The notes under the pieces: model-generated
What the model saw: the letters and a program-made list of their open reading frames with translations, nothing else
Told to the model about the DNA's origin: nothing
The model's database searches: none
Program-made: the position numbers and the translations under genes
DNA from: Streptomyces sp. NBC_00289
GTDB lineage: Bacteria > Actinomycetota > Actinomycetes > Streptomycetales > Streptomycetaceae
DNA length: 64,000 nucleotides
Reading direction: 5' to 3'
Assembly (NCBI RefSeq): GCF_041435115.1
Contig: NZ_CP108049.1
Span: forward strand, 1 to 64,000
Part shown: positions 2,995 to 41,107 of the stretch, one piece after another
Position numbering within the stretch: position 1 is the first letter of the stretch
Layout of the letters: each line of letters begins with the position of its first letter

Positions 2995-3177
2995 CTGCCC
3001 CGGACGCAGCGGCCGACCGCTGCAGTCGAGCGAGGGTGCAGCCCCGGAGGAAGGGCGCGGTGATGCGGGGACTCCGGGCCGGTGCCGGACGGCGGGCAGC
3101 GGGCCGGGTGGTAGCACCAGGTAAACCGGTTTGTTCTGGAGCAGCAGAACAACCGACGGCTGCTCGGGGTGCGCACG

Positions 3178-28054: not shown

Positions 28055-28072
28055 CCCGCTCCGGACGAACAA

Positions 28073-28178
28073 CCACGGCCCCGACCGCCCCCGCATCAAG
28101 GGGGCGGCCGGGGCCGTGGCTGCTCGTACGACCAGCCAAAACGACGACAGCCCCGGCGACTTGAGACCCCCGGGGCTG
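28073..28178 (+). terminator. two consecutive GC-rich hairpins
   Basis: CCACGGCCCC (28073-28082) pairs with GGGGCCGTGG (28110-28119), with an inner stem between. CAGCCCCGG (28148-28156) pairs with CCGGGGCTG (28170-28178). They separate the 203-residue gene from the small-gene cluster. Confidence 0.7.
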
Positions 28179-29161: not shown

Positions 29162-29172
29162 TCCGTTCTGGC

Positions 29173-29238
29173 GGCTGCCTGATCCGCCCGCACCGACCGC
29201 TGCACCCTGGCGGCCGGGACGGGCGGTGACGGGGAGCC
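29173..29238 (+). ncRNA. candidate structured RNA element, family 1 copy A
   Basis: GGCT (29173-29176) pairs with AGCC (29235-29238). Conserved internal loop GCCTGAT / TGACGGGG. CCGCCCG (29184-29190) pairs with CGGGCGG (29220-29226), closed by a variable 29-base apical part. Copies B (29535-29600) and C (41053-41107) keep the loop bases and the pairing. Confidence 0.55.
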
Positions 29239-29272
29239 GGACAGCCCGGACCGACAGCCCAGGGAGGCCCTG

Positions 29273-29533
29273 ATGGGCACGACGACCCTCCAGCTCGACA
29301 CCGCGACGACCGACGCCGGCACCACGCTGTTGCCGGACTCGCTGTGCACGCACACGCCGCACTGCCCGTCGGCCTCCAGCCCGGCGGCGGAGGCCGCCCG
29401 CGTCGTGGCGAGTCACCCGGAGCAGGGATGGAGCCTGCTGTGCAACGCCGTGGTGGTCTTCGACGACACCGGCGAGCTGCTCCCCGACGGCCGGGTCATC
29501 GACCCGCACCGTCCCCTCGCGATCACGGCCTGA
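29273..29533 (+). CDS. DUF5999 family protein
   Basis: 86 residues with GGGAGG before CTGATG. CTHTPHCPSASSPAAEAARV, ASHPEQGWSLLCNAVVVFDD and TGELLPDGRVIDPHRP match the short Streptomyces family DUF5999 almost word for word, with conserved Cys and His residues at the N-terminus. Function of the family is unknown. It lies between two copies of the structured intergenic element: copy A in its 5' leader and copy B immediately after its stop. Confidence 0.8.
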   Translation: MGTTTLQLDTATTDAGTTLLPDSLCTHTPHCPSASSPAAEAARVVASHPEQGWSLLCNAVVVFDDTGELLPDGRVIDPHRPLAITA

Positions 29534-29534
29534 C

Positions 29535-29600
29535 GGCTGCCTGATCCGCTCGCGCCGGCCGCCGCACCACGGCGCCGGTTTCGGGCGGTGACGGGGAGTC
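29535..29600 (+). ncRNA. candidate structured RNA element, family 1 copy B
   Basis: GGCT (29535-29538) pairs with AGTC (29597-29600, one G-U). CCGCTCG (29546-29552) pairs with CGGGCGG (29582-29588, one G-U). The internal loop GCCTGAT / TGACGGGG is identical to copy A. The rest of the interval to 29850 contains TTTCGGGAGC repeats and no firm gene. Confidence 0.55.
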
Positions 29601-29850
29601 GGACAGTCCCTTTCGCTCCCGCCCGGCGGGAGCCACGGACAGTTTCGAGCCCGCCCCTCAGCACTCCCCCGGACCCGCCGCCCGCACCACGGGCGGCCGG
29701 CCTTTCAGCACGGCCCGCTCCGGGAAGGCAACGGCCCCTTGGGGCCGATTTCGGCTCCGCCGACCGCCGTTTCGGGAGCAGCCGCCCGCGTTTCGGGAGC
29801 GGCCCCCACTGCTTCGCCCACACCCGGAATGACCCCCTCTGGAGGCCCTC

Positions 29851-32508: not shown

Positions 32509-34488
32509 ATGACCGACGACGGTCGGGGCGCGGACGTCATCACGCTCCCCATGCTCAACCTGGCGCCCCCTGGCGGCGCTCCCGATGACGGGGTTCCGCC
32601 CCCGCCTGAAGCCGGTGACCTGGCCCCGCCGCCCGGGTTCTCCCTGCCGTTCCCGACCCCCGGTGACGACGACGATTCGAGCACCGTCGACCCCGACGAC
32701 GTCGCCCCGCAGATGGTCGCCAACGCCTCAAGCGGAACCGGAACACCGGCCCGCGCGACAGCCTCGATGGCGATGGTCACGATGGCAGCGATCGCCGTCG
32801 CGGCGCTGCGCGGCACGTGGTCGATGGCGAACTACCTGAAGGCGCGGCGCGAGCATCACGACGCCGTCGCCGACAAGGCGCGCGAGGCGGCCGACAAGCA
32901 GAAGGTCGCGAACGCGGCGGCCGGAGCGAAGAAGGGCGTGCAGTCCGGGCCCGAGTTCGGACGCGGCGCGACCGGCAAGGGCGGCGGCGGTCGCTCGGGC
33001 GGGTCCGGCACCGGCGGCGGCTCGGGGCGGGGCGCCTTCGGGCAGCAGCAGAAGCCCGCATCGAAGGCCGGCGGCCGGGGCAGCTCAGCCAACGGCGCGA
33101 CCGGCGCCAGCGGCCGCGGTACGGGCGCGGGCGCGGGACCGAAGGGGTCGAAGAACGGACCTACCAGCGGCTCGCGCACCCCGGGGCCGGGCTCATCGGG
33201 CAAGGGCTCGAAGGGCGCGGCCGGAGGCGGCACCGGATCGTCAGGCCCGGGCTCGGGATCGAGTAAGGGCTCAGCGAGCGGGGCGAAGAAGGGCCCGGGC
33301 ACGCTCGGGAAGCTCGCGACCGGCCGACAGCAGCGCAAGAACGACGAAGCGAAGGCCGGGCGCCAGGCTGCGGCCGATGAGCGCAAGGCCGACCTGGCCG
33401 ACCGCGCGGCGGCCAGGAAGGAAGCGGCAGCCGCGGCCGCCGACCGGCGCAAGCGGAAGGCAGAGAAGCGGAAGGCGAAGCGCGAGCGCGAGAAGGCCGG
33501 CGCCACCGACCCGAAGGCCACCAAGGACCCGAAGGAGACCGGCAAGGGCAAGCCCGACGAGAAGGTCGACCTGACCAAGAAGCCCAAGCCCGGTGACGGC
33601 ACCGGGGCGAAGAAGGACACCGAGAAGGTCGACCTGACCAAGAAGCCCAAGCCCGGTGACGGCACCGGGGCGAAGAAGGACACCGAGAAGGTCGACCTCA
33701 CCAAGAAGCCCGGCAGCTCGAAGGGCAGGACCAAGAAGACGCCGAAGCCGCCCCGGAAGAAGAGGCCGCACAGCTGGCGCCGGAAGCCGAAGGGAGGCAC
33801 GACGGGACCGAAGACGGGTCGACGGCGCAGGAAGGGCCGCACTACGAGCGACCCCGGGCCGATGCCCGGCGGCGACGGCGAGTGGCTGCGCCCCCCGCCC
33901 GGCTGGGACGTCACCTACAAGGTCGACGTCGAGGTCATCCGGCCCGAACCGCGGCGACGCCAGCCCGCTGGCATCACCACAGGTCGCAGGGAGCTGCCCG
34001 CCGGATCATCCGGTCAGGTCAAGCCCACCCGATCCGTACCGAAAGAGAGCCCGATCGTCATGGGTACAGCCGTTGCAGTCGGCGAGGTCGGCGACACCCA
34101 GTTCGTCGACGCCGACCTGACCGTGTACGACCTGATCGAGTCCGACGAAGAGATGGGCGAGCAGATCCTTCAGGGCGTCGATCACATGAACCTCGTTGCC
34201 GCGAAGTGCGAGGGCCTGAAGTCCGGGCTCGAATCGCTGTACGCGATGTGCATCGAGAAGAAGGTCCCCGGCGTCCTCGTGATGTGGTGCATCCGCCTCA
34301 TGGAGCGGGCCGGGAGCGTGCAGGACAAGGCCGAAGCGCTGCGCGACTCCCTGCCGCGCGCGTCCGAGGCGATCCTGTCGGCGCGCGACACCGCCATCGA
34401 GGCCGACAAGCTGCGCGCCGACCGGGTGAAGGAAGCCGGCCACGTGGCACCGGCTGAGCGTGAGTACCACGACCGAAGTGGGGCCTGA
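32509..34488 (+). CDS. large Gly/Lys-rich low-complexity protein of the transfer region
   Basis: 659 residues with GTGAGG upstream. A Pro-rich, acidic N-terminus and one hydrophobic segment (about 84-104, ASMAMVTMAAIAVAALRGTW) precede ~350 residues dominated by Gly, Ser, Lys and Arg. Three copies of a 21-residue unit beginning EKVDLTKKPKPGDGTGAKKD occur at ~350-415 (63-base direct repeats starting 33561, 33624 and 33687). The last ~150 residues are ordered: GDTQFVDADLTVYDLIESDE, then helices including VAAKCEGLKSGLESLYAMCI. The basic middle could bind DNA or cell-wall polymers. It sits between the DUF2637 and Tra genes; role inferred as transfer accessory. Confidence 0.7.
   Translation: MTDDGRGADVITLPMLNLAPPGGAPDDGVPPPPEAGDLAPPPGFSLPFPTPGDDDDSSTVDPDDVAPQMVANASSGTGTPARATASMAMVTMAAIAVAALRGTWSMANYLKARREHHDAVADKAREAADKQKVANAAAGAKKGVQSGPEFGRGATGKGGGGRSGGSGTGGGSGRGAFGQQQKPASKAGGRGSSANGATGASGRGTGAGAGPKGSKNGPTSGSRTPGPGSSGKGSKGAAGGGTGSSGPGSGSSKGSASGAKKGPGTLGKLATGRQQRKNDEAKAGRQAAADERKADLADRAAARKEAAAAAADRRKRKAEKRKAKREREKAGATDPKATKDPKETGKGKPDEKVDLTKKPKPGDGTGAKKDTEKVDLTKKPKPGDGTGAKKDTEKVDLTKKPGSSKGRTKKTPKPPRKKRPHSWRRKPKGGTTGPKTGRRRRKGRTTSDPGPMPGGDGEWLRPPPGWDVTYKVDVEVIRPEPRRRQPAGITTGRRELPAGSSGQVKPTRSVPKESPIVMGTAVAVGEVGDTQFVDADLTVYDLIESDEEMGEQILQGVDHMNLVAAKCEGLKSGLESLYAMCIEKKVPGVLVMWCIRLMERAGSVQDKAEALRDSLPRASEAILSARDTAIEADKLRADRVKEAGHVAPAEREYHDRSGA
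33561..33712 (+). repeat. 63-bp tandem direct repeats within the Gly/Lys-rich gene
   Basis: GAAGGTCGACCTGACCAAGA recurs at 33561, 33624 and (one base different) 33687, an exact 63-base period. The first two units are nearly identical; the third is partial. Confidence 0.9.
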
Positions 34489-35104: not shown

Positions 35105-35965
35105 ATGCCGCTGCGCACGTACATCCAGACCACCCGCCGCGCGGGTTCGGCCGCAATCAGCGGCGTCGGCCGGCTCGCGACCATCGCGGGCGGCGGCGCC
35201 ATGACGGCGGGGCTGTTCACCGACGCCGGCACCCTGCCCGCGATCCTCACCACGATCGCGGCCGGGCTGGGCGGGGCGTTCCTGTCGCCCCGGCTTCAGC
35301 TCGCCCACCCGATGAAGAAGCCGATCGTGTTCACGGTCTACCTGGCGCCGCACTCCGTGCTGGTCTCGAACCTCGTCACCGAGCTGGTGTGGGACGCGAC
35401 CGAGGGCCGCTTGGTCCAGGGCGGCGTCGCCGTGCTGTGGACGGCCGGAGTGTGGTGGCTGCGCCCCGGGCGGCTCGCCAAGCGGGTCGCGAAGTGGCCC
35501 GAGCCCGTCATCGAGACCGACGGCACCGAGGCCGACCAGGACGCCGCAGGCGCTGAACTCGAGGTCGCCATCGAGATTCCCGACGATCCGGCGGGCCGGT
35601 GGTGGGCCCTGAACGCGGCGAAGAAGGACGGCGTCGCTGAGGGCACGCGCGTGATCGCTGTTCGGGCGATCGAGGACCGGCGCCGCGTCGCCGTCGCGCT
35701 CGCCGCGATCGAGAAGGGCGAGCCCGTACCCGACATCAAGATCAGGCGCCTGTCGGCCCTGATGAACGTGCCCGAGGAACTGCTGGAGGTAGAGGCGATC
35801 CCCGGGCACGGTGCCGGAGTTGCGATGCTGCTGATCGGTCCCAAGCCCGAGGCCGGCCCGACGCCCGACGTGGACGTGTGGACCGAGATCGGCCGGTCCG
35901 CGCTGCCCGGCGTGACTCTCACCGAGATCAACGAGTACGACATGTCGAAGGAGGTCAACCCGTGA
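35105..35965 (+). CDS. transfer-associated membrane protein
   Basis: 286 residues from ATG 35105 (AAAGGAG upstream). Hydrophobic segments lie at about 14-36, 40-60, 76-95 and 105-120 (VSNLVTELVWDATEG, GGVAVLWTAGVWWL), followed by a cytoplasmic domain (~135-286) containing LEVAIEIPDDPAGRWWALNA and VAVALAAIEKGEPVPDIKIR. The stop overlaps tra by GTGA, so the two are translationally coupled. By position it may anchor or couple the Tra motor at the membrane, like the Spd/transfer membrane proteins of Streptomyces plasmids. Confidence 0.7.
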   Translation: MPLRTYIQTTRRAGSAAISGVGRLATIAGGGAMTAGLFTDAGTLPAILTTIAAGLGGAFLSPRLQLAHPMKKPIVFTVYLAPHSVLVSNLVTELVWDATEGRLVQGGVAVLWTAGVWWLRPGRLAKRVAKWPEPVIETDGTEADQDAAGAELEVAIEIPDDPAGRWWALNAAKKDGVAEGTRVIAVRAIEDRRRVAVALAAIEKGEPVPDIKIRRLSALMNVPEELLEVEAIPGHGAGVAMLLIGPKPEAGPTPDVDVWTEIGRSALPGVTLTEINEYDMSKEVNP

Positions 35966-37395
35966 CGCCGGCAGCCCTCGCGAAGAAGCACGTTGAGGCA
36001 AAGCAGGAGGTGATGCGCGAGTACATGCTGCGCACCAGGCCGGGCGGCGTGAAGGGCGCCGACCATGACGCCCTGTGCGACCTCCTGGAGGTCGACGACC
36101 CCTCGCGCGTGATTTTCGAGCAGGGGCGGGGCCGCCAGGCGGTCGTCCGTGTCTTCCCGGTGAACCCGCTCGCGAAGATGCGTGCGATCACCCTCGAAGA
36201 CCTCCAGCTGGATGAGAACGGCTGTATCCGTATCGGCTCGTACTACGACGGCGAGCCGCTGCGGATGCGGGTGCACGACCCCGAGACCGGCAACGCGCAG
36301 CGCATCATCATCTTCGGCACGACTGGCGCCGGTAAGAGCCGTGCTCTTCAGGCGTTCCTCGCCGCGTGCAAGCGCGCCGGGATCGTCGTGCACCTGGCCG
36401 ACCTGAAGGGCGGGCAGTCCGTACCCGAGGCGAAGGACAACGTCGCCACGCACGTGCGGACGCTGGAAAAGGCGATGGGCCTGCTGCGGGCCGCCGTCGT
36501 GAAGGCCGAAGCGCGGTTCAACGAGTACGCCGACATGGGCCGCTCGGGCTTCCTGATCAACAACCCGGACCCGCTCGAATACGTCGTCATCGATGAAGCC
36601 AACCGCCTGCTGGAGAAGGGCAGCCCGTTCCGGGCTGAGGCGGCTCGGCTGATCAAGGAGATCGGTCGGACCGGGCGCAGCGTCGGCATCGGCATCGTCC
36701 TCGCGGCGCAGGCCGGGCACCTTGACGAGCTCGGTGGCAGCGACACCCTGCGGGCCATGCTGAAGGAAGGCGAGGTCATCCTCCTTCGGTGGAGCTCGCA
36801 GATGATGGCCTCGCTCGTTGGCGACGGCCTGCTGCCGACCGGCGAAAACCTTCAGCCCATCCCGAAGATTCTCGGTGCCGCCCGTCGTATCCAGCGATGG
36901 GGCCAGCCCGTCGACCGCAGCAAGGAGAAGCCGAACAGCCAGGGCATGTGCTACCACCTGACGTCGGCCCGGCCGACCTCGATGGCGCGCTTCTTCCTGG
37001 TCGGCTCGCTCTCGCCGCACGAGGGGTACGACCCGGTGATCCGGCAGCTCTACGGCTCCGCGCCGCCCCCGGGCGAGCCCCTGAAGCTGATCTTCCCGCC
37101 GCCCAAGGAGGGCAAGGGAGGCCAGGCGGCCGGCGACGCCGACGACTGGGAGTACGGCGAGGGCGACGAAGGCGAGAACGAATCGCTGCCGCCGATGCCC
37201 AGGACGCTGAAGGAGAGGATCCTCGCGGCACTTGAGTCCGGCCCCCTGTCCGAGGCAGACCTTCGGGCGGCCCTCGATGAGGACGGCGGGAAGGACGCCA
37301 AGCTCGGTTCCGTGCGCACCACGATCAGCACCCTGCGCGGCGAGGAAAAGCTCGCCCCGAGGGACGCTTCCGGCCTGATCAGCCTGCCCATGTGA
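35962..37395 (+). CDS. tra: FtsK/SpoIIIE-type conjugal DNA translocase (Tra)
   Basis: 477 residues from GTG 35962 with AAGGAGG 7 bases upstream. The motor domain has Walker A FGTTGAGKS (118-126), Walker B YVVIDEAN (207-214) and an Arg-finger region EIGRTGRSVGIGIVLAAQ. A C-terminal winged helix (about 415-475: LKERILAALESGPLSEADLR) would recognise short clt repeats, as in Streptomyces TraB proteins. This single protein moves double-stranded plasmid DNA between hyphae. There are no obvious membrane segments, which agrees with a partner membrane protein encoded upstream. An acidic Gly-rich linker precedes the winged helix. Confidence 0.92.
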   Translation: MTPAALAKKHVEAKQEVMREYMLRTRPGGVKGADHDALCDLLEVDDPSRVIFEQGRGRQAVVRVFPVNPLAKMRAITLEDLQLDENGCIRIGSYYDGEPLRMRVHDPETGNAQRIIIFGTTGAGKSRALQAFLAACKRAGIVVHLADLKGGQSVPEAKDNVATHVRTLEKAMGLLRAAVVKAEARFNEYADMGRSGFLINNPDPLEYVVIDEANRLLEKGSPFRAEAARLIKEIGRTGRSVGIGIVLAAQAGHLDELGGSDTLRAMLKEGEVILLRWSSQMMASLVGDGLLPTGENLQPIPKILGAARRIQRWGQPVDRSKEKPNSQGMCYHLTSARPTSMARFFLVGSLSPHEGYDPVIRQLYGSAPPPGEPLKLIFPPPKEGKGGQAAGDADDWEYGEGDEGENESLPPMPRTLKERILAALESGPLSEADLRAALDEDGGKDAKLGSVRTTISTLRGEEKLAPRDASGLISLPM

Positions 37396-37436
37396 TCAAG
37401 GGGCGCCCGAGACCGACCAGGGCGTCCCAGCCCCCT

Positions 37437-37470
37437 GCGCCCTCCCCGCCACCACGGCCGGGGAGGGCGC
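37437..37470 (+). terminator. hairpin downstream of tra
   Basis: GCGCCCTCCCC (37437-37447) pairs with GGGGAGGGCGC (37460-37470). The hairpin at 37735-37767 shares its left arm and loop-proximal bases (GCGCCCTCCCCGCCACC). Confidence 0.75.
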
Positions 37471-37520
37471 CCCCCGTATCGCCGTCATCTACGCCGACCT
37501 TCCCGAAGGAGCTCTCCACC

Positions 37521-37712: not shown

Positions 37713-37734
37713 ACCGCCCCACTCCCCCGCCCCT

Positions 37735-37767
37735 GCGCCCTCCCCGCCACCCCGGCAGGGAGGGCGC
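37735..37767 (+). terminator. hairpin, near copy of that at 37437
   Basis: GCGCCCTCCC (37735-37744) pairs with GGGAGGGCGC (37758-37767). Confidence 0.7.
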
Positions 37768-37795
37768 CCCCGCATCTGCCCGGATGGAGAACACC

Positions 37796-38293
37796 GTGGA
37801 CTTCGAGCACCTCACCCGCCCGCTGACCGACGCCGAAGCCAAGGCCGAAGCCCAGCGGATCATCGAAGAGAACTTCCGCCCCGAGGTGCCCGTCGTGCGG
37901 CACATGCCGACGTCGTTCCGCGACGACAGCCCGCTGCCCCCGTACGGCGACACCCCGCCCGTCCATCAGGACGACAAGCGGATCGTGCCCGCCTGGGCAG
38001 CAGGGATCGCCGTCGCGAGCATCGGCGTCGGCGCCGGCGTCACCGGCATCGGCTGCGGCGCCTGGCTGGTCCTCCAGGGCCTGGCCTCCGTCACGCTCTA
38101 CGGCGTCCTCATGGTGACCCTCCCCTTCGCGGGCGTCGCCATGGTCGCCACCGCGATCGGCGGCGCGATCAACAAGGCCCGCAACGCGGTCACCAAGAAC
38201 GTGTTCGAGGGCCCCGTCGTGCAGAACACGCAGATCAACAACACCAGCAACCAGCGCGGGATGTTCTCCCGCACCCGCAACGACGTCCGCTGA
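37796..38293 (+). CDS. membrane protein of the transfer region, 165 aa
   Basis: 165 residues from GTG 37796 (GGAG 6 bases upstream; ATG 37784 is an alternative). A soluble N-terminus (VDFEHLTRPLTDAEAKAEAQ) is followed by two or three hydrophobic stretches (~66-100 and ~105-128: AAGIAVASIGVGAGVTGIGC, GVLMVTLPFAGVAMVATAIG), then a polar tail (VVQNTQINNTSNQRGMFSRT). Gly-rich membrane proteins like this are typical of actinobacterial transfer clusters. Followed by structured element family 2 copy 1. Confidence 0.65.
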   Translation: MDFEHLTRPLTDAEAKAEAQRIIEENFRPEVPVVRHMPTSFRDDSPLPPYGDTPPVHQDDKRIVPAWAAGIAVASIGVGAGVTGIGCGAWLVLQGLASVTLYGVLMVTLPFAGVAMVATAIGGAINKARNAVTKNVFEGPVVQNTQINNTSNQRGMFSRTRNDVR

Positions 38294-38296
38294 ACT

Positions 38297-38367
38297 CCGG
38301 ACGCCCTGCCTCGCAGCCGACACCCCGCCGCATCGGCCGGGCTTCGGGTGCGGGACAGGCCCTCCGG
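38297..38367 (+). ncRNA. candidate structured RNA element, family 2 copy 1
   Basis: CCGGA (38297-38301) pairs with TCCGG (38363-38367). GGGACAGGCC precedes the closing strand. The internal stem is less regular than in copies 2 and 3. Located 3 bases after a stop codon. Confidence 0.4.
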
Positions 38368-38526
38368 CCTCACGGCCAGTCGCAGCCGATCCCGACGCCG
38401 CCCAGGTCACCGACCTCGGCATCCCGGATCTGCCCGCCGACCGCAGCCGTCGCCTCCGGGCCCGCCGCTCACAGCCTGGCCCACTCGCACGCCCCGAACA
38501 GCCCATCGACACCCTGGAGTTGCCCC

Positions 38527-39285
38527 GTGCAGTCCCACGACCACACCCCCGGCCCCAACCGCCAGGAGCTCACCTACCTCCCGGTGCCCTTCCCGAAGGC
38601 GCCGCCCAAGGAGCCGCGGTTCGCCGCGCTGCGCACCTGGTGGAACGAGGCCTGGGAAGACAACGGCGTCCTGCACCAGATGTGGGAAGACGTGCTCAGC
38701 GTCCCCGAGACCGGCTTCCGGCACATGGCCCCGTGGCTCCGCGCCGTCCTGATGGTGGCCGGAGTCTCCTTCGCCGTGCTGATGGCCAAGGCCGCCGGCG
38801 ACGTCGTCCTCGAGGCGCTGCACCAGCTGCTCACCGCCGTGCCCAAGGTGCAGGTCGGCGTCGACACATCCAGCGGCGTGGCCGCCGTCGTCGACCAGCC
38901 GGTCCGCACGTACATCGCGCAGCACGCCGCCGGCCTCCCGGTCGAAGGCTCCACCGTCTACACGCTGTGGCTGCTCACCGGCATCGTCGGCCTGGTCCTC
39001 GGCTACCTCTCCCGGAACAACGGAGTGCGCGCGATGTGGACGGCACACGGCGCGGCCACCGTGTGGATGGTCTGGACGGCCACCCCCGACACCAGCCGCA
39101 CCGTCGCGGTCGCCCTCGCCGTCCTCGCCTGGACGTTCCTCTCCGCGTTCGCGATGCGCGGCCTGACCCTGCGCCGCCCCGCCGCCCGCCCGGTGGAGGT
39201 CACCGTCCGGCCCGAGATCCACATCCCGGTGCCGCCCCCGGCCGCGCCCGCCGACCAGCACAACGGCTGCCCCTTCCGGGAGTGA
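38527..39285 (+). CDS. polytopic membrane protein, 252 aa
   Basis: 252 residues from GTG 38527. A Pro-rich N-terminus and helix (ALRTWWNEAWEDNGVLHQMW) precede transmembrane segments at about 68-88, 138-158, 168-180 and 190-208 (AVLMVAGVSFAVLMAKAAGD, VYTLWLLTGIVGLVLGYLSR, TVAVALAVLAWTFLSAFAMR). The tail is Pro-rich and ends with Cys (NGCPFRE). It is part of the post-tra membrane-protein run and is probably involved in plasmid spread. Followed directly by structured element family 2 copy 2. Confidence 0.65.
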   Translation: MQSHDHTPGPNRQELTYLPVPFPKAPPKEPRFAALRTWWNEAWEDNGVLHQMWEDVLSVPETGFRHMAPWLRAVLMVAGVSFAVLMAKAAGDVVLEALHQLLTAVPKVQVGVDTSSGVAAVVDQPVRTYIAQHAAGLPVEGSTVYTLWLLTGIVGLVLGYLSRNNGVRAMWTAHGAATVWMVWTATPDTSRTVAVALAVLAWTFLSAFAMRGLTLRRPAARPVEVTVRPEIHIPVPPPAAPADQHNGCPFRE

Positions 39286-39288
39286 CCT

Positions 39289-39357
39289 CCGGACGCTCCG
39301 CCTGGTCCTCGCCCACCCGCTCCGGCGCGGTGGGCGAGGACCGGACAGGCCGTCCGG
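39289..39357 (+). ncRNA. candidate structured RNA element, family 2 copy 2
   Basis: CCGGACG (39289-39295) pairs with CGTCCGG (39351-39357). GGTCCTCGCCCAC (39304-39316) pairs with GTGGGCGAGGACC (39330-39342). CTCCGCC and GGACAGGC lie between the two stems. Copy 3 at 40296-40359 preserves both stems with compensatory changes. Confidence 0.6.
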
Positions 39358-39404
39358 CCTCACGCACCACCGCCCCTGTCCCCCGCCGCGCAAGGAGATT
39401 CGTC

Positions 39405-39617
39405 ATGCCGCAGAACACCCAGACCCCGAAGCCGGTGTACGGCTGGTTCATCCCCGCGCAGACCACCGCCCCGGCCAAGCCGAAGCTGTCGCTGCTGAAG
39501 CGTCTCGCGCTGGCCGCCGCGGCCGTCCTCGCGATCGTGCTCGGCTCCCACACCAGCGCGGACGGTCAGCCCGCCACCCCCTCCCCGGGCCCGTCGGCCA
39601 CGACGACCGGGCGGTGA
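39405..39617 (+). CDS. small single-span membrane protein, 70 aa
   Basis: 70 residues, AAGGAG upstream of ATG 39405. N-terminal MPQNTQTPKPVYGWFIPAQT, one hydrophobic helix (~35-49, LALAAAAVLAIVLGS), then a Thr/Pro/Ser-rich extracellular tail. The end overlaps the next start as GTGA. A small membrane anchor or spread-type protein; not recognised further. Confidence 0.6.
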   Translation: MPQNTQTPKPVYGWFIPAQTTAPAKPKLSLLKRLALAAAAVLAIVLGSHTSADGQPATPSPGPSATTTGR

Positions 39618-40288
39618 CCTCCGTGGACATCAAACTCCCGTGGATGAGCCGCTCCGACCGGCGCAGCTGGCGGTCCGCCCGGACCATCGGCGACCTCGGT
39701 GAGCTGATGGCCCTCTGGCTGGAGGGGAAGATCGCTTCCCGTCCCGGCTACCAGCCGCGCCACGGGCCCGACGATGAGACCGCGCACCTGGTGCCCACAC
39801 TCGCCGCCCTGTGTCGGGCCGGATACGTCACCACTCAGTCCCAGCCCGGGTTCGCCGGCACCGGTGCGGCCGGCCTGTGGTGGGAACAGCGAGCCGCAGT
39901 CGAGCTGGTGGTCACCGACCCGACGCTGTTCCACCGTCTGGTCGACGCCGCGTACGCCGCCGGGATGACCGTCCGGATCAACGACTACCGCCCCAACGGT
40001 GGCGTCCAGGAGCAGCCCGTCGTCGCCACCACCTGCGACGGCGAGGCCATGACCGCGTTCGGCGGACGAATCAGCCGCGCGGACATGGCCATTCAGTGGC
40101 CCGGACTGGACCGCGACCTCTACGGCGAGGTCAGCACCGGCACGTACGTCTCGATCATCGCCCCCGAGTACGGCTTGGCCGGCGAACGGCTGTGGGTCGC
40201 GCTCGACTTCCTCACCGGCCTGCGCCAGCACGACCCCGACAACCCGTGGAACAGCCCGGCCCCGGGCGAGCCCGCCCGGGAACGCTGA
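39614..40288 (+). CDS. DUF6919-like protein
   Basis: 224 residues from GTG 39614, coupled by GTGA to the upstream gene. TIGDLGELMALWLEGKIASR, PGYQPRHGPDDETAHLVPTL, LCRAGYVTTQSQPGF and QRAAVELVVTD follow a Streptomyces family I recall as DUF6919. Members are widespread on plasmids and the chromosome, with no known activity. No membrane segment. Conserved aspartates and the SQPG turn suggest an enzyme-like or binding fold. Followed by structured element family 2 copy 3. Confidence 0.7.
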   Translation: MTSVDIKLPWMSRSDRRSWRSARTIGDLGELMALWLEGKIASRPGYQPRHGPDDETAHLVPTLAALCRAGYVTTQSQPGFAGTGAAGLWWEQRAAVELVVTDPTLFHRLVDAAYAAGMTVRINDYRPNGGVQEQPVVATTCDGEAMTAFGGRISRADMAIQWPGLDRDLYGEVSTGTYVSIIAPEYGLAGERLWVALDFLTGLRQHDPDNPWNSPAPGEPARER

Positions 40289-40295
40289 CACACCT

Positions 40296-40359
40296 CCGGT
40301 CGCTCCGCCCGGTGCTCGCCCGCCGCTCACGGTGGGCGAGCACCGGACAGGCCGACCGG
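40296..40359 (+). ncRNA. candidate structured RNA element, family 2 copy 3
   Basis: CCGGTCG (40296-40302) pairs with CGACCGG (40353-40359). CGGTGCTCGCCC (40310-40321) pairs with GGGCGAGCACCG (40334-40345). CTCCGCC and GGACAGGC are kept. Versus copy 2, one pair flips A-T to T-A in the outer stem and one flips C-G to G-C in the inner stem. Confidence 0.6.
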
Positions 40360-40444
40360 CCGCCAGCACCGCCCTGCGTCCCGCCGACGAACACCGTCGG
40401 CGGGACGCACTGCTTCTGCCCACCGACGCCTGGAGGACCCGCCC

Positions 40445-40552
40445 GTGCTCATCCCCAGACCACGCCGCCGGATCGGCCGACCCCGCCCCTTTCGCCCCGG
40501 ACCCCGCTACCCGCAGCAGCCCCGTCAACTCCCCGGCGCCTGGAGGCCGTGA
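40445..40552 (+). CDS. tiny Pro/Arg-rich protein, 35 aa
   Basis: 35 residues from GTG 40445, with GGAGG 7 bases upstream. The sequence VLIPRPRRRIGRPRPFRPGP continues Pro/Arg-rich to GAWRP. The stop TGA shares its last base with the next ATG (TGATG), so translation would be coupled to the RRQRL-type zinc protein. A strongly cationic Pro-Arg peptide could bind RNA or ribosomes, or it may only be a leader peptide. Coding status is uncertain. Confidence 0.45.
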   Translation: MLIPRPRRRIGRPRPFRPGPRYPQQPRQLPGAWRP

Positions 40553-41028
40553 TGGACCGCCCAGACGAAGACGACCTGGTCGACGTCGACCTCTACGACG
40601 ACGGCAGCTTCCCGGAGTACGGCTTTCGACAAGCCCCAGGTGCCGCCGCAGTGTTCGCAGCGTTACGCGGGACCGGGCCCGTACCCGAGACGGGACTCGT
40701 GACCCGCCGCCAGCTACGCGCGCTGGGCTTGAGCCCCGGCGGCCAGAAGCCCGTGGCGGGACTCACGTGGCGCAACGGGCTGCGAAAGGCCTGGTTCTAC
40801 CGCATCGAACTGGCGGCACCGAAGCGGATTCCCACTCTGGCTCAGGAGATGGCGCTGGATCGGGCGATGGCCGCGAGGCAGACCTGCCCCACCTGCCGAA
40901 TTCGGTACTACGCGTGCCTGCCGCTGCGTACCCAAGGCCAGTGCGAACCGTGTGACAAGGGCTACCAGCCCAGTCCCGACACCGTCATGACATACCCGGC
41001 CCCGGCCACACACCGACTCGCCGCCTGA
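40552..41028 (+). CDS. RRQRL-motif zinc-binding protein
   Basis: 158 residues from ATG 40552 (TGGAGG upstream). An acidic N-terminus precedes TRRQLRALGLSPGGQKPVAG, the RRQxRxxGL motif, then a helical segment, and CPTCRIRYYACLPLRTQGQC with a further CEPC: a four-Cys zinc site. This is the Streptomyces plasmid family often named for its RRQRL motif; function unknown. It lies at the junction between the membrane-protein run and the accessory block. Confidence 0.8.
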   Translation: MDRPDEDDLVDVDLYDDGSFPEYGFRQAPGAAAVFAALRGTGPVPETGLVTRRQLRALGLSPGGQKPVAGLTWRNGLRKAWFYRIELAAPKRIPTLAQEMALDRAMAARQTCPTCRIRYYACLPLRTQGQCEPCDKGYQPSPDTVMTYPAPATHRLAA

Positions 41029-41052
41029 CCCGGCAGCGCCCCGAGCGCTGAC

Positions 41053-41107
41053 GGCTGCCTGATCCGCCCGTCCCGCCGCCCGGTGGTCCGGGCGGTGAAG
41101 GGGAGCC
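41053..41107 (+). ncRNA. candidate structured RNA element, family 1 copy C
   Basis: GGCT (41053-41056) pairs with AGCC (41104-41107). CCGCCCG (41064-41070) pairs with CGGGCGG (41089-41095). The internal loop GCCTGAT / TGAAGGGG is conserved with one change. An alternative inner hairpin CCGCCCGG/CCGGGCGG with TGGT loop (41075-41095) competes for the same strand. Confidence 0.5.

Follow-up and report, generated by a model that had tools for sequence, protein, structure and literature searches.

The RNase III sites of phage T7 early mRNA are irregular intercistronic hairpins with an internal loop that are repeated between cistrons, and Actino-pnp (RF01688), which we take to be the rpsO-pnp hairpin cut by RNase III, is likewise intercistronic. 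In Streptomyces coelicolor, RNase III makes two cuts in the rpsO-pnp hairpin, one at each side of a [4/4] internal loop, according to the part of the source drawn on here (PMC10126417). In the portions of two further papers used here, some mapped 3' ends of Streptomyces clavuligerus are strong hairpins without a U tract and are compared with I-shaped terminators (PMC8269248), and pIJ101-type plasmids carry sps, a 12-bp palindrome bound by SpdA2 and located in or near spdA genes (PMC4170104). Here we describe a near-palindromic element of approximately 60 to 80 nucleotides (nt) that occurs three times in a 64,000-nt stretch of Streptomyces sp. NBC_00289 (contig NZ_CP108049.1, positions 1 to 64,000; here called the window). 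We suggest that it is an intercistronic hairpin that may segment or protect the mRNA of transfer regions on Streptomyces plasmids, a reading to which we assign a probability of roughly 0.45, that is, somewhat below even odds.

The element resembles Actino-pnp in being intercistronic, in its similar length and 7-bp base (GCCGGTC/GACCGGC in Actino-pnp, CCGGNCG/CGNCCGG in the element), and in having a C.A mismatch, more mismatches within the upper helix, and a tip that varies. However, Actino-pnp, as compared in 31 loci (the genome's own copy and the 30 best-scoring ones), is invariant below the tip, whereas the element varies; Actino-pnp is present in 120 of 121 genomes, whereas the element is found in 56 of 392 and behind many genes; and the sense strand is favored in folding in 22 of the 31 Actino-pnp loci, whereas the minus strand of the element is favored in 55 of 68 copies. 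Actino-pnp had no match at the gathering cutoff in the window and none at E ≤ 1 between positions 38200 and 40600; the genes flanking the element are other than rpsO and pnp, and the genome's own Actino-pnp lies on a different contig (C1). The T7 sites, likened to the element by description only, share with it the irregular intercistronic hairpin with an internal loop.

Three copies behind stop codons

On the plus strand of the window, copy 1 (positions 38296 to 38370) begins 2 nt past the stop codon of the gene at 37784 to 38293, copy 2 (39288 to 39360) 2 nt past that of the gene at 38527 to 39285, and copy 3 (40295 to 40362) 6 nt past that of the gene at 39614 to 40288; the start codon following copy 2 is at 39405. 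An earlier interpretation made from the DNA letters alone (the sequence-only reading) had placed copies at 38297 to 38367, 39289 to 39357, and 40296 to 40359, each behind a stop codon, and this was borne out. It had also described copy 1 as the looser match, which agrees with our assignment of that copy to a sister type (type A), in which CCCTGCC replaces CTCCGCC, the inner stem is different, and six of the seven outer pairs form. Copies 2 and 3 (type B) carry CTCCGCC and GGACAGGC, and the two compensatory changes that had been pointed out between them are present: an A-T pair of the outer stem in copy 2 is T-A in copy 3, and a C-G pair of the inner stem is G-C.

With the covariance model R1, seeded with 11 copies, copies 2 and 3 (both in the seed) scored 86.8 and 82.5 bits, respectively, and copy 1 scored 38.9 bits (E = 3.3e-6); folding z-scores on the plus strand were −3.8, −5.5, and −6.3 for copies 1, 2, and 3. 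The combination CTCCGCC-N20-50-GGACAGGC occurs twice in the window, a number never reached in 100 shuffles (mean, 0.07), and over the whole genome the bare CTCCGCC/GGACAGGC pattern is at chance level (13 occurrences versus 11 for the reversed pattern).

Structure and covariation across the family

The R1 search gave 205 hits, from which 115 sites were taken, leaving out opposite-strand echoes, loci under two identifiers, and a few weak hits (e.g., positions 735 and 1558 of L229; compared loci are designated by L numbers). These sites represent 113 distinct copies, 107 of which passed a filter for the 3' motif (6 were dropped) and 68 of which are nonredundant; because R1 was seeded with 11 copies, the set leans towards those copies. 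Comparing the two arms gap-free from either end, we assigned pairs 0 to 6 to an outer stem and pairs 13 to 23 to an inner stem. Pair 4 of the outer stem and pairs 15, 18, 20, 22, and 23 of the inner stem were paired more often than in any of 2,000 shuffles, a test that leaves relatedness among the copies in place. Pair 7 is C.C in 88 of 107 copies and paired in just 5, pair 12 is C.A in 71, and pair 14 is U.G in 85.

The unpaired C.C and a 3' GGCC-NNNN-GGCC motif, self-pairable in 60 of the 68 nonredundant copies, are steadier than the outer stem, CTCCGCC, or GGACAGGC. With G.U counted as a pair, all of the outer stem forms in 25 of 68 copies and at most five of its pairs form in 21, and CTCCGCC and GGACAGGC are exact in 43 and 66 of 113 copies, respectively. 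The sequence-only reading had regarded the outer stem as constant and the two motifs as kept; the former did not hold up, and the latter is correct for copies 2 and 3 and fails for the family as a whole. That reading had also named copies with a broken outer stem or without these bases as evidence against it, and such copies are in part what was found, as many break the outer stem or lack an exact motif. Of the two C residues just past the outer stem, one is conserved in 66 and the other in 65 of 68 copies, and over 24 positions, the 3' arm holds 33.2 bits of information and the 5' arm holds 30.7.

As the GGCC-NNNN-GGCC mini-hairpin and the outer stem use the same 3' bases, the two are mutually exclusive. 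In copy 2, the possible mini-hairpin AGGCCGTCCGGCC (positions 39347 to 39359, plus strand) would compete with the outer stem and has a predicted energy of −7.5 kcal/mol when one more base is included; the predicted energies of four such mini-hairpins range from −7.1 to −7.5 kcal/mol. No U tract follows the stem and no terminator-like site was called at the elements, so the element is not a classical intrinsic terminator. In this respect, the earlier statement that it is not a plain terminator stands, with U-less termination, weighed below, still a rival.

Position behind genes and occupancy of a homologous slot

A codirectional open reading frame (ORF; limits taken from a heuristic caller or from annotation, here and in the gap counts below) ends no more than 110 nt upstream of 98 of the 113 copies, with its end within −6 to +15 nt of the element in 75 of them. 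The same test on the antisense strand gave 49 ORFs, 14 of them within 15 nt, and the antisense ORF scored higher in just 3 cases. In 23 of the 98 copies, among them copies behind TraB-like ATPases (SLP2 included), the stop codon is 43 to 110 nt away. The next start, as called, lies between 3 and 319 nt beyond the element and often 25 to 45 nt beyond it. The flanking ORFs fall into 20 families upstream and 42 downstream (upper bounds, given the heuristic caller), and thus the module is not bound to any particular gene.

The gene between copies 1 and 2 (38527 to 39285, plus strand), whose 252-amino-acid (aa) product had no match in Pfam, NCBIfam, or PHROG, allowed one slot to be followed among relatives. 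Its homologs gave 55 matches in 49 of 343 same-genus genomes (its own included), of which 30 (L289 to L318) were compared; the remaining 25, all weaker than the 27th row, were left out. In the window and its 25 best relatives (at least 209 of 252 residues matching), a same-strand element lies 4 to 385 nt past the end of the match in every case.

In four loci (L143, L144, L145, and L146), a type A element is followed by an annotated minus-strand gene that ends 6 to 7 nt behind it, and some copies therefore sit between convergent genes. The convergent gene occupies positions 3097 to 3315 in L143, 3096 to 3314 in L144, 6095 to 6313 in L145, and 3093 to 3311 in L146; at the equivalent place in the window, no ORF of at least 80 aa was listed.

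Distribution of the element

A covariance search of the kind that the sequence-only reading had proposed was productive: with a threshold of E ≤ 1e-4, R1 hit 56 of 392 same-genus genomes, and with E ≤ 0.01, it hit 31 of 150. A class-wide sample had matches in 6 of its 296 genomes, representing 2 of its 114 genera. The sole genome hit outside the genus was G574, where a single site matched on both strands; judged by eye, this site is without the fixed 3' motif, and the match is probably due to chance. Copy 2 as sole query matched 115 plasmid records at E ≤ 0.01, all from Streptomyces and including SLP2 (L244) and pSV2 (L145), and a search of phage records with copy 3 gave no match. Contigs longer than 5 Mb hold 9 of 40 fetched element regions, and therefore the element is not confined to plasmids. 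The window is part of contig C4 of an 11.0-Mb genome in six contigs, in which R1 sites comprise the three window copies, a single site each on C3 and C2, and two weak sites on C1, apart from echoes on the opposite strand.

A scan of the window against 4,227 Rfam models gave no match at the gathering cutoff, and two weak scores, for a microRNA family and a CRISPR-repeat family, were dismissed as noise. None of the titles and abstract openings listed from the open-license PubMed Central literature mentions the element, and within these searches the family is apparently undescribed.

A possible role in dividing transfer-region mRNA

The proposed role starts from what is observed, namely, structure, covariation, position, and slot occupancy, from which we infer transcription through the element, the nuclease, the cut site, and an effect on expression. 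The element would be transcribed with its operon, giving a hairpin of approximately 60 to 80 nt directly behind the stop codon, with a base of 7 bp, an imperfect internal loop that carries the nearly fixed C.C and the usual C.A, and a variable upper helix. RNase III may then cut at the internal loop, as in the S. coelicolor rpsO-pnp hairpin, or exonucleases may halt at the hairpin, and neighboring cistrons would thereby gain separate half-lives. After a cut, the downstream message would start near GGCC-NNNN-GGCC and could form a 5' mini-hairpin of its own, which would account for the stricter conservation of several 3'-arm positions relative to their 5' partners. Like known RNase III processing sites, the element is an intercistronic hairpin with an internal loop.

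In these operons, cistrons are commonly followed by hairpins, of which the element family is one of several kinds. Seven annotated plasmid loci have 32 intercistronic gaps of 70 to 400 nt, and 23 of these gaps had z < −2, compared with 6 of 52 coding controls; when the seven gaps that contain the element (inverted in one, in L349) were removed, this was still true of 16 of 25. In the run of genes in the window, seven of eight gaps had z ≤ −2.25, three of them holding the element, and 3 of 40 coding controls fell below −2.

RNA or DNA

The RNA reading is supported by the orientation of the element relative to the upstream gene and by its position behind stop codons. As a test of wobble asymmetry, pair changes were counted between nearest neighbors, which do not form independent pairs. 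Actino-pnp was dropped as a matched control, and since its stem is invariant in the 31 loci, tRNA stems were used instead, a small control of 22 distinct tRNAs from 30 loci (fetched of 67 own-genome matches) and 17 neighbor pairs.

Several observations weigh against the RNA reading. Changes to G.U and A.C were about equally frequent in the element (51 and 54), whereas tRNA stems gave 10 and 1 (Fisher P = 0.009); counting one-sided changes gave 48 and 47. In 55 of 68 copies, folding is better on the minus strand than on the plus strand; the apparent reason is that the C.A pairs of the internal loop become G.U on the minus strand, and the inner stem by itself shows no strand difference. Window copy 2 is 96% identical to an element of Streptomyces glaucescens pSglau1 between unrelated flanks, the highest such identity among 41 (dependent) pairs of elements that are at least 88% identical and yet have no detected flanking DNA similarity on either side, which suggests that the element is passed on or exchanged as one unit of DNA. 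The slot behind the 252-aa gene is also not universally filled, as L315 to L318, which carry weaker or partial homologs, lack a same-strand element (L315, L317, and L318 have opposite-strand R1 matches). It holds inverted relatives in L318, in Streptomyces rimosus pPZG101 (L349, 40.1 bits), and in Streptomyces sp. HUAS 15-9 (L354, 35.5 bits), and two distant homologs have no clear hairpin in it (z = −0.32 in L356 and −1.72 in L355, from Embleya).

The inverted relatives are those of L315, L318, L349, and L354, where distant homologs of the 252-aa gene have them behind their stop codons; the stretches in L315 and L354 are identical, and L349 has a forward element as well, in the upstream slot. 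The idea that the Embleya slot holds a kept hairpin of other sequence was dropped in view of its z-score and the lack of an R1 match there.

The result of the wobble test depends heavily on one position. Pair 17 supplies 11 of the 22 A.C changes in the inner stem, and without it the inner-stem ratio of G.U to A.C is 19:11 and no longer different from that of tRNA (Fisher P = 0.13). Plain counts for pairs 15 to 23 were 37 G.U and 26 A.C, and counts flanked by standard pairs were 19 and 24. The inner stem also showed 23 double swaps between nearest neighbors. The claim of a selected RNA or cruciform structure stands in part: the covarying pairs and the slot filled in the 25 best relatives indicate a recurrent selected palindrome, and the compensatory changes may reflect selection on either RNA or DNA, with no excess of G.U over A.C overall but half of the inner-stem A.C changes coming from pair 17.

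Alternative explanations

The alternative that survives best, doubtful as we consider it, is that the element is a U-less ("I-shaped") partial terminator, possibly bidirectional, or a Rho-assisted 3' end, which stops part of the polymerases or marks where 3' trimming halts. The 20 nt behind the element are C rich, G poor, and U poor (C, 0.52; G, 0.21; T, 0.10), and C-rich, G-poor RNA is expected for Rho loading. The type A copies between convergent stops raise our estimate for termination, an antisense ORF ends within 15 nt of 14 of the 113 copies, and a two-way terminator would account for the missing strand preference. Strong U-lacking hairpins ("HS-U-lack") make up 353 of 1,427 mapped 3' ends in S. 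clavuligerus, as given in the part of the source used here, and the element resembles them as a strong GC hairpin without a U tract (PMC8269248). It differs in having fixed internal-loop bases, in lying mostly in codirectional runs, and in forming one family across many plasmids. However, a plain terminator needs no C.C/C.A internal loop, and inside codirectional runs, where most copies lie, the next start is often 25 to 45 nt on.

We consider it unlikely that the element acts as a DNA-level palindrome, be it a strand-indifferent cruciform, a protein site comparable to repetitive extragenic palindromic (REP) sequences and bacterial interspersed mosaic elements (BIME), or a border of gene-module exchange, with pairing maintained through selection acting on the DNA or through template-switch correction of quasi-palindromes rather than through RNA folding. 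The near-equality of G.U and A.C changes, the inner-stem double swaps, the inverted relatives in the homologous slot, and the near-identical elements between unrelated flanks all fit such a palindrome. The first of these leans on pair 17, however, and the same-strand position in all 25 best relatives and the 75 sense versus 14 antisense ORFs argue against this reading. REP/BIME sequences are similar to the element in being palindromes with fixed mismatch positions behind stop codons and in having near-identical copies at unrelated sites, some of them inverted, but the element has few copies per genome (in 11 Mb, R1 gave 9 rows at E ≤ 1 with echoes counted, instead of many dispersed copies) and is located at orthologous sites. 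Y1 transposases were rejected as its movers, since in this genome all 10 PF01797 matches are on C1 and none are on C2 to C4. Integron attC sites have a GTT core site at their outer ends, and the outer ends of the element are mostly CCGG..CCGG by eye. The sps palindrome is also conserved on Streptomyces conjugative plasmids but, by the description in the part of the source used, is 12 bp long and in or near spdA genes, whereas the element is approximately 60 to 80 bp long and intergenic (PMC4170104).

Still less probable, in our estimation, is a form of this idea in which the element, as an exchangeable DNA module indifferent to strand, marks gene-cassette borders in the transfer regions of Streptomyces plasmids, where cassettes of one or a few genes would be gained and lost, with the palindrome kept by DNA-level selection or templated repair and doubling as an mRNA hairpin when transcribed. 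Positions 39405 to 40288 hold two genes that are present, with an extra element copy, in the window and in L142 (apparently also in L209), and L144-type plasmids have a single element; this two-gene difference between copies 2 and 3 might represent a cassette-like gain between elements and would also suit the DNA palindrome. The weight of pair 17 lowers our estimates for both the palindrome and the cassette border.

Finally, a ribosome-responsive or protein-binding RNA switch, in which a terminating ribosome covers the 5' outer arm so that the 3' mini-hairpin forms and its departure lets the outer stem form and alters translation of the next gene, is very improbable: competition for the same 3' bases (60 of 68 pairable in the mini-hairpin versus 25 of 68 complete in the outer stem), the two conserved C residues outside the outer stem, and a stop codon no more than 15 nt away in 75 of the 98 copies would suit it, but the stop codon is 43 to 110 nt away in the other 23, and the downstream genes are many and begin at widely different distances (3 to 319 nt).

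Genomic context and other repeats

The elements are embedded in a codirectional run of transfer-type genes, all on the plus strand, and 208 of the 211 plasmid records matching the region are from Streptomyces. Upstream in this run is an FtsK/TraB-like ATPase (35962 to 37395, its start set from the length of a homolog), a weak match under the cutoff of the TraB model. Copy 1 is preceded by a 169-aa protein (37784 to 38293) matching phrog_19266, of unknown function. Behind copy 2 come a 70-aa small protein, membrane-like by eye (39405 to 39617), and a 224-aa DUF6919 protein (39614 to 40288), which precedes copy 3. Behind copy 3 are a second, different perfect hairpin, found by eye (40375 to 40409, plus strand), and an RRQRL motif-containing zinc-binding protein (40552 to 41028). 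An unannotated Arg/Pro-rich ORF of 35 codons (40445 to 40552, plus strand) has a stop codon that overlaps the start of the RRQRL gene (TGATG), and by eye it is also found in the DNA of L142, L144, L145, L147, L149, L160, L190, L209, and L231. No sigma-70-type promoter was matched between 34 and 46 kb, although the consensus used is Escherichia coli-like and the test is thus weak.

Other hairpins and repeats were observed nearby. A related intercistronic hairpin pair (TGCGCCCTCCCCGCC ... GGGAGGGCGCC) lies at 37422 to 37471 and 37720 to 37769, downstream of the transfer ATPase and of the small gene that comes next. A further class (CCACGG...CCGTGGCTG) with weak R1 scores is found at 28060 to 28134 in the window, at 1501 to 1582 in L156, and at 421 to 485 and 1501 to 1583 in L184; by eye, a 3' mini-hairpin is possible in this class, too. 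A repeated stretch (CTGACGGCTGCCTGATCCGCC...) is located at 29168 to 29247 and 29530 to 29609 (80 nt, 83% identical), with a shorter third copy at 41048 to 41082, and a 659-aa ORF (32509 to 34488) contains a 63-nt tandem repeat at 33558 to 33746, with two identical copies and a third at 63% identity.

Implications

The family belongs to the intercistronic hairpins and has evolved in an unusual way. It also offers a caution that compensatory changes alone are no proof of RNA structure, and the wobble-asymmetry test against tRNA did not bring out the preference that would be expected of RNA. The element is present in approximately 1 in 7 sampled same-genus genomes, and well-studied plasmids, SLP2 and pSV2 among them, carry it. 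As an intercistronic hairpin in transfer regions whose genes are mostly unnamed, it may provide a handle on how long operons are divided into separately expressed units.

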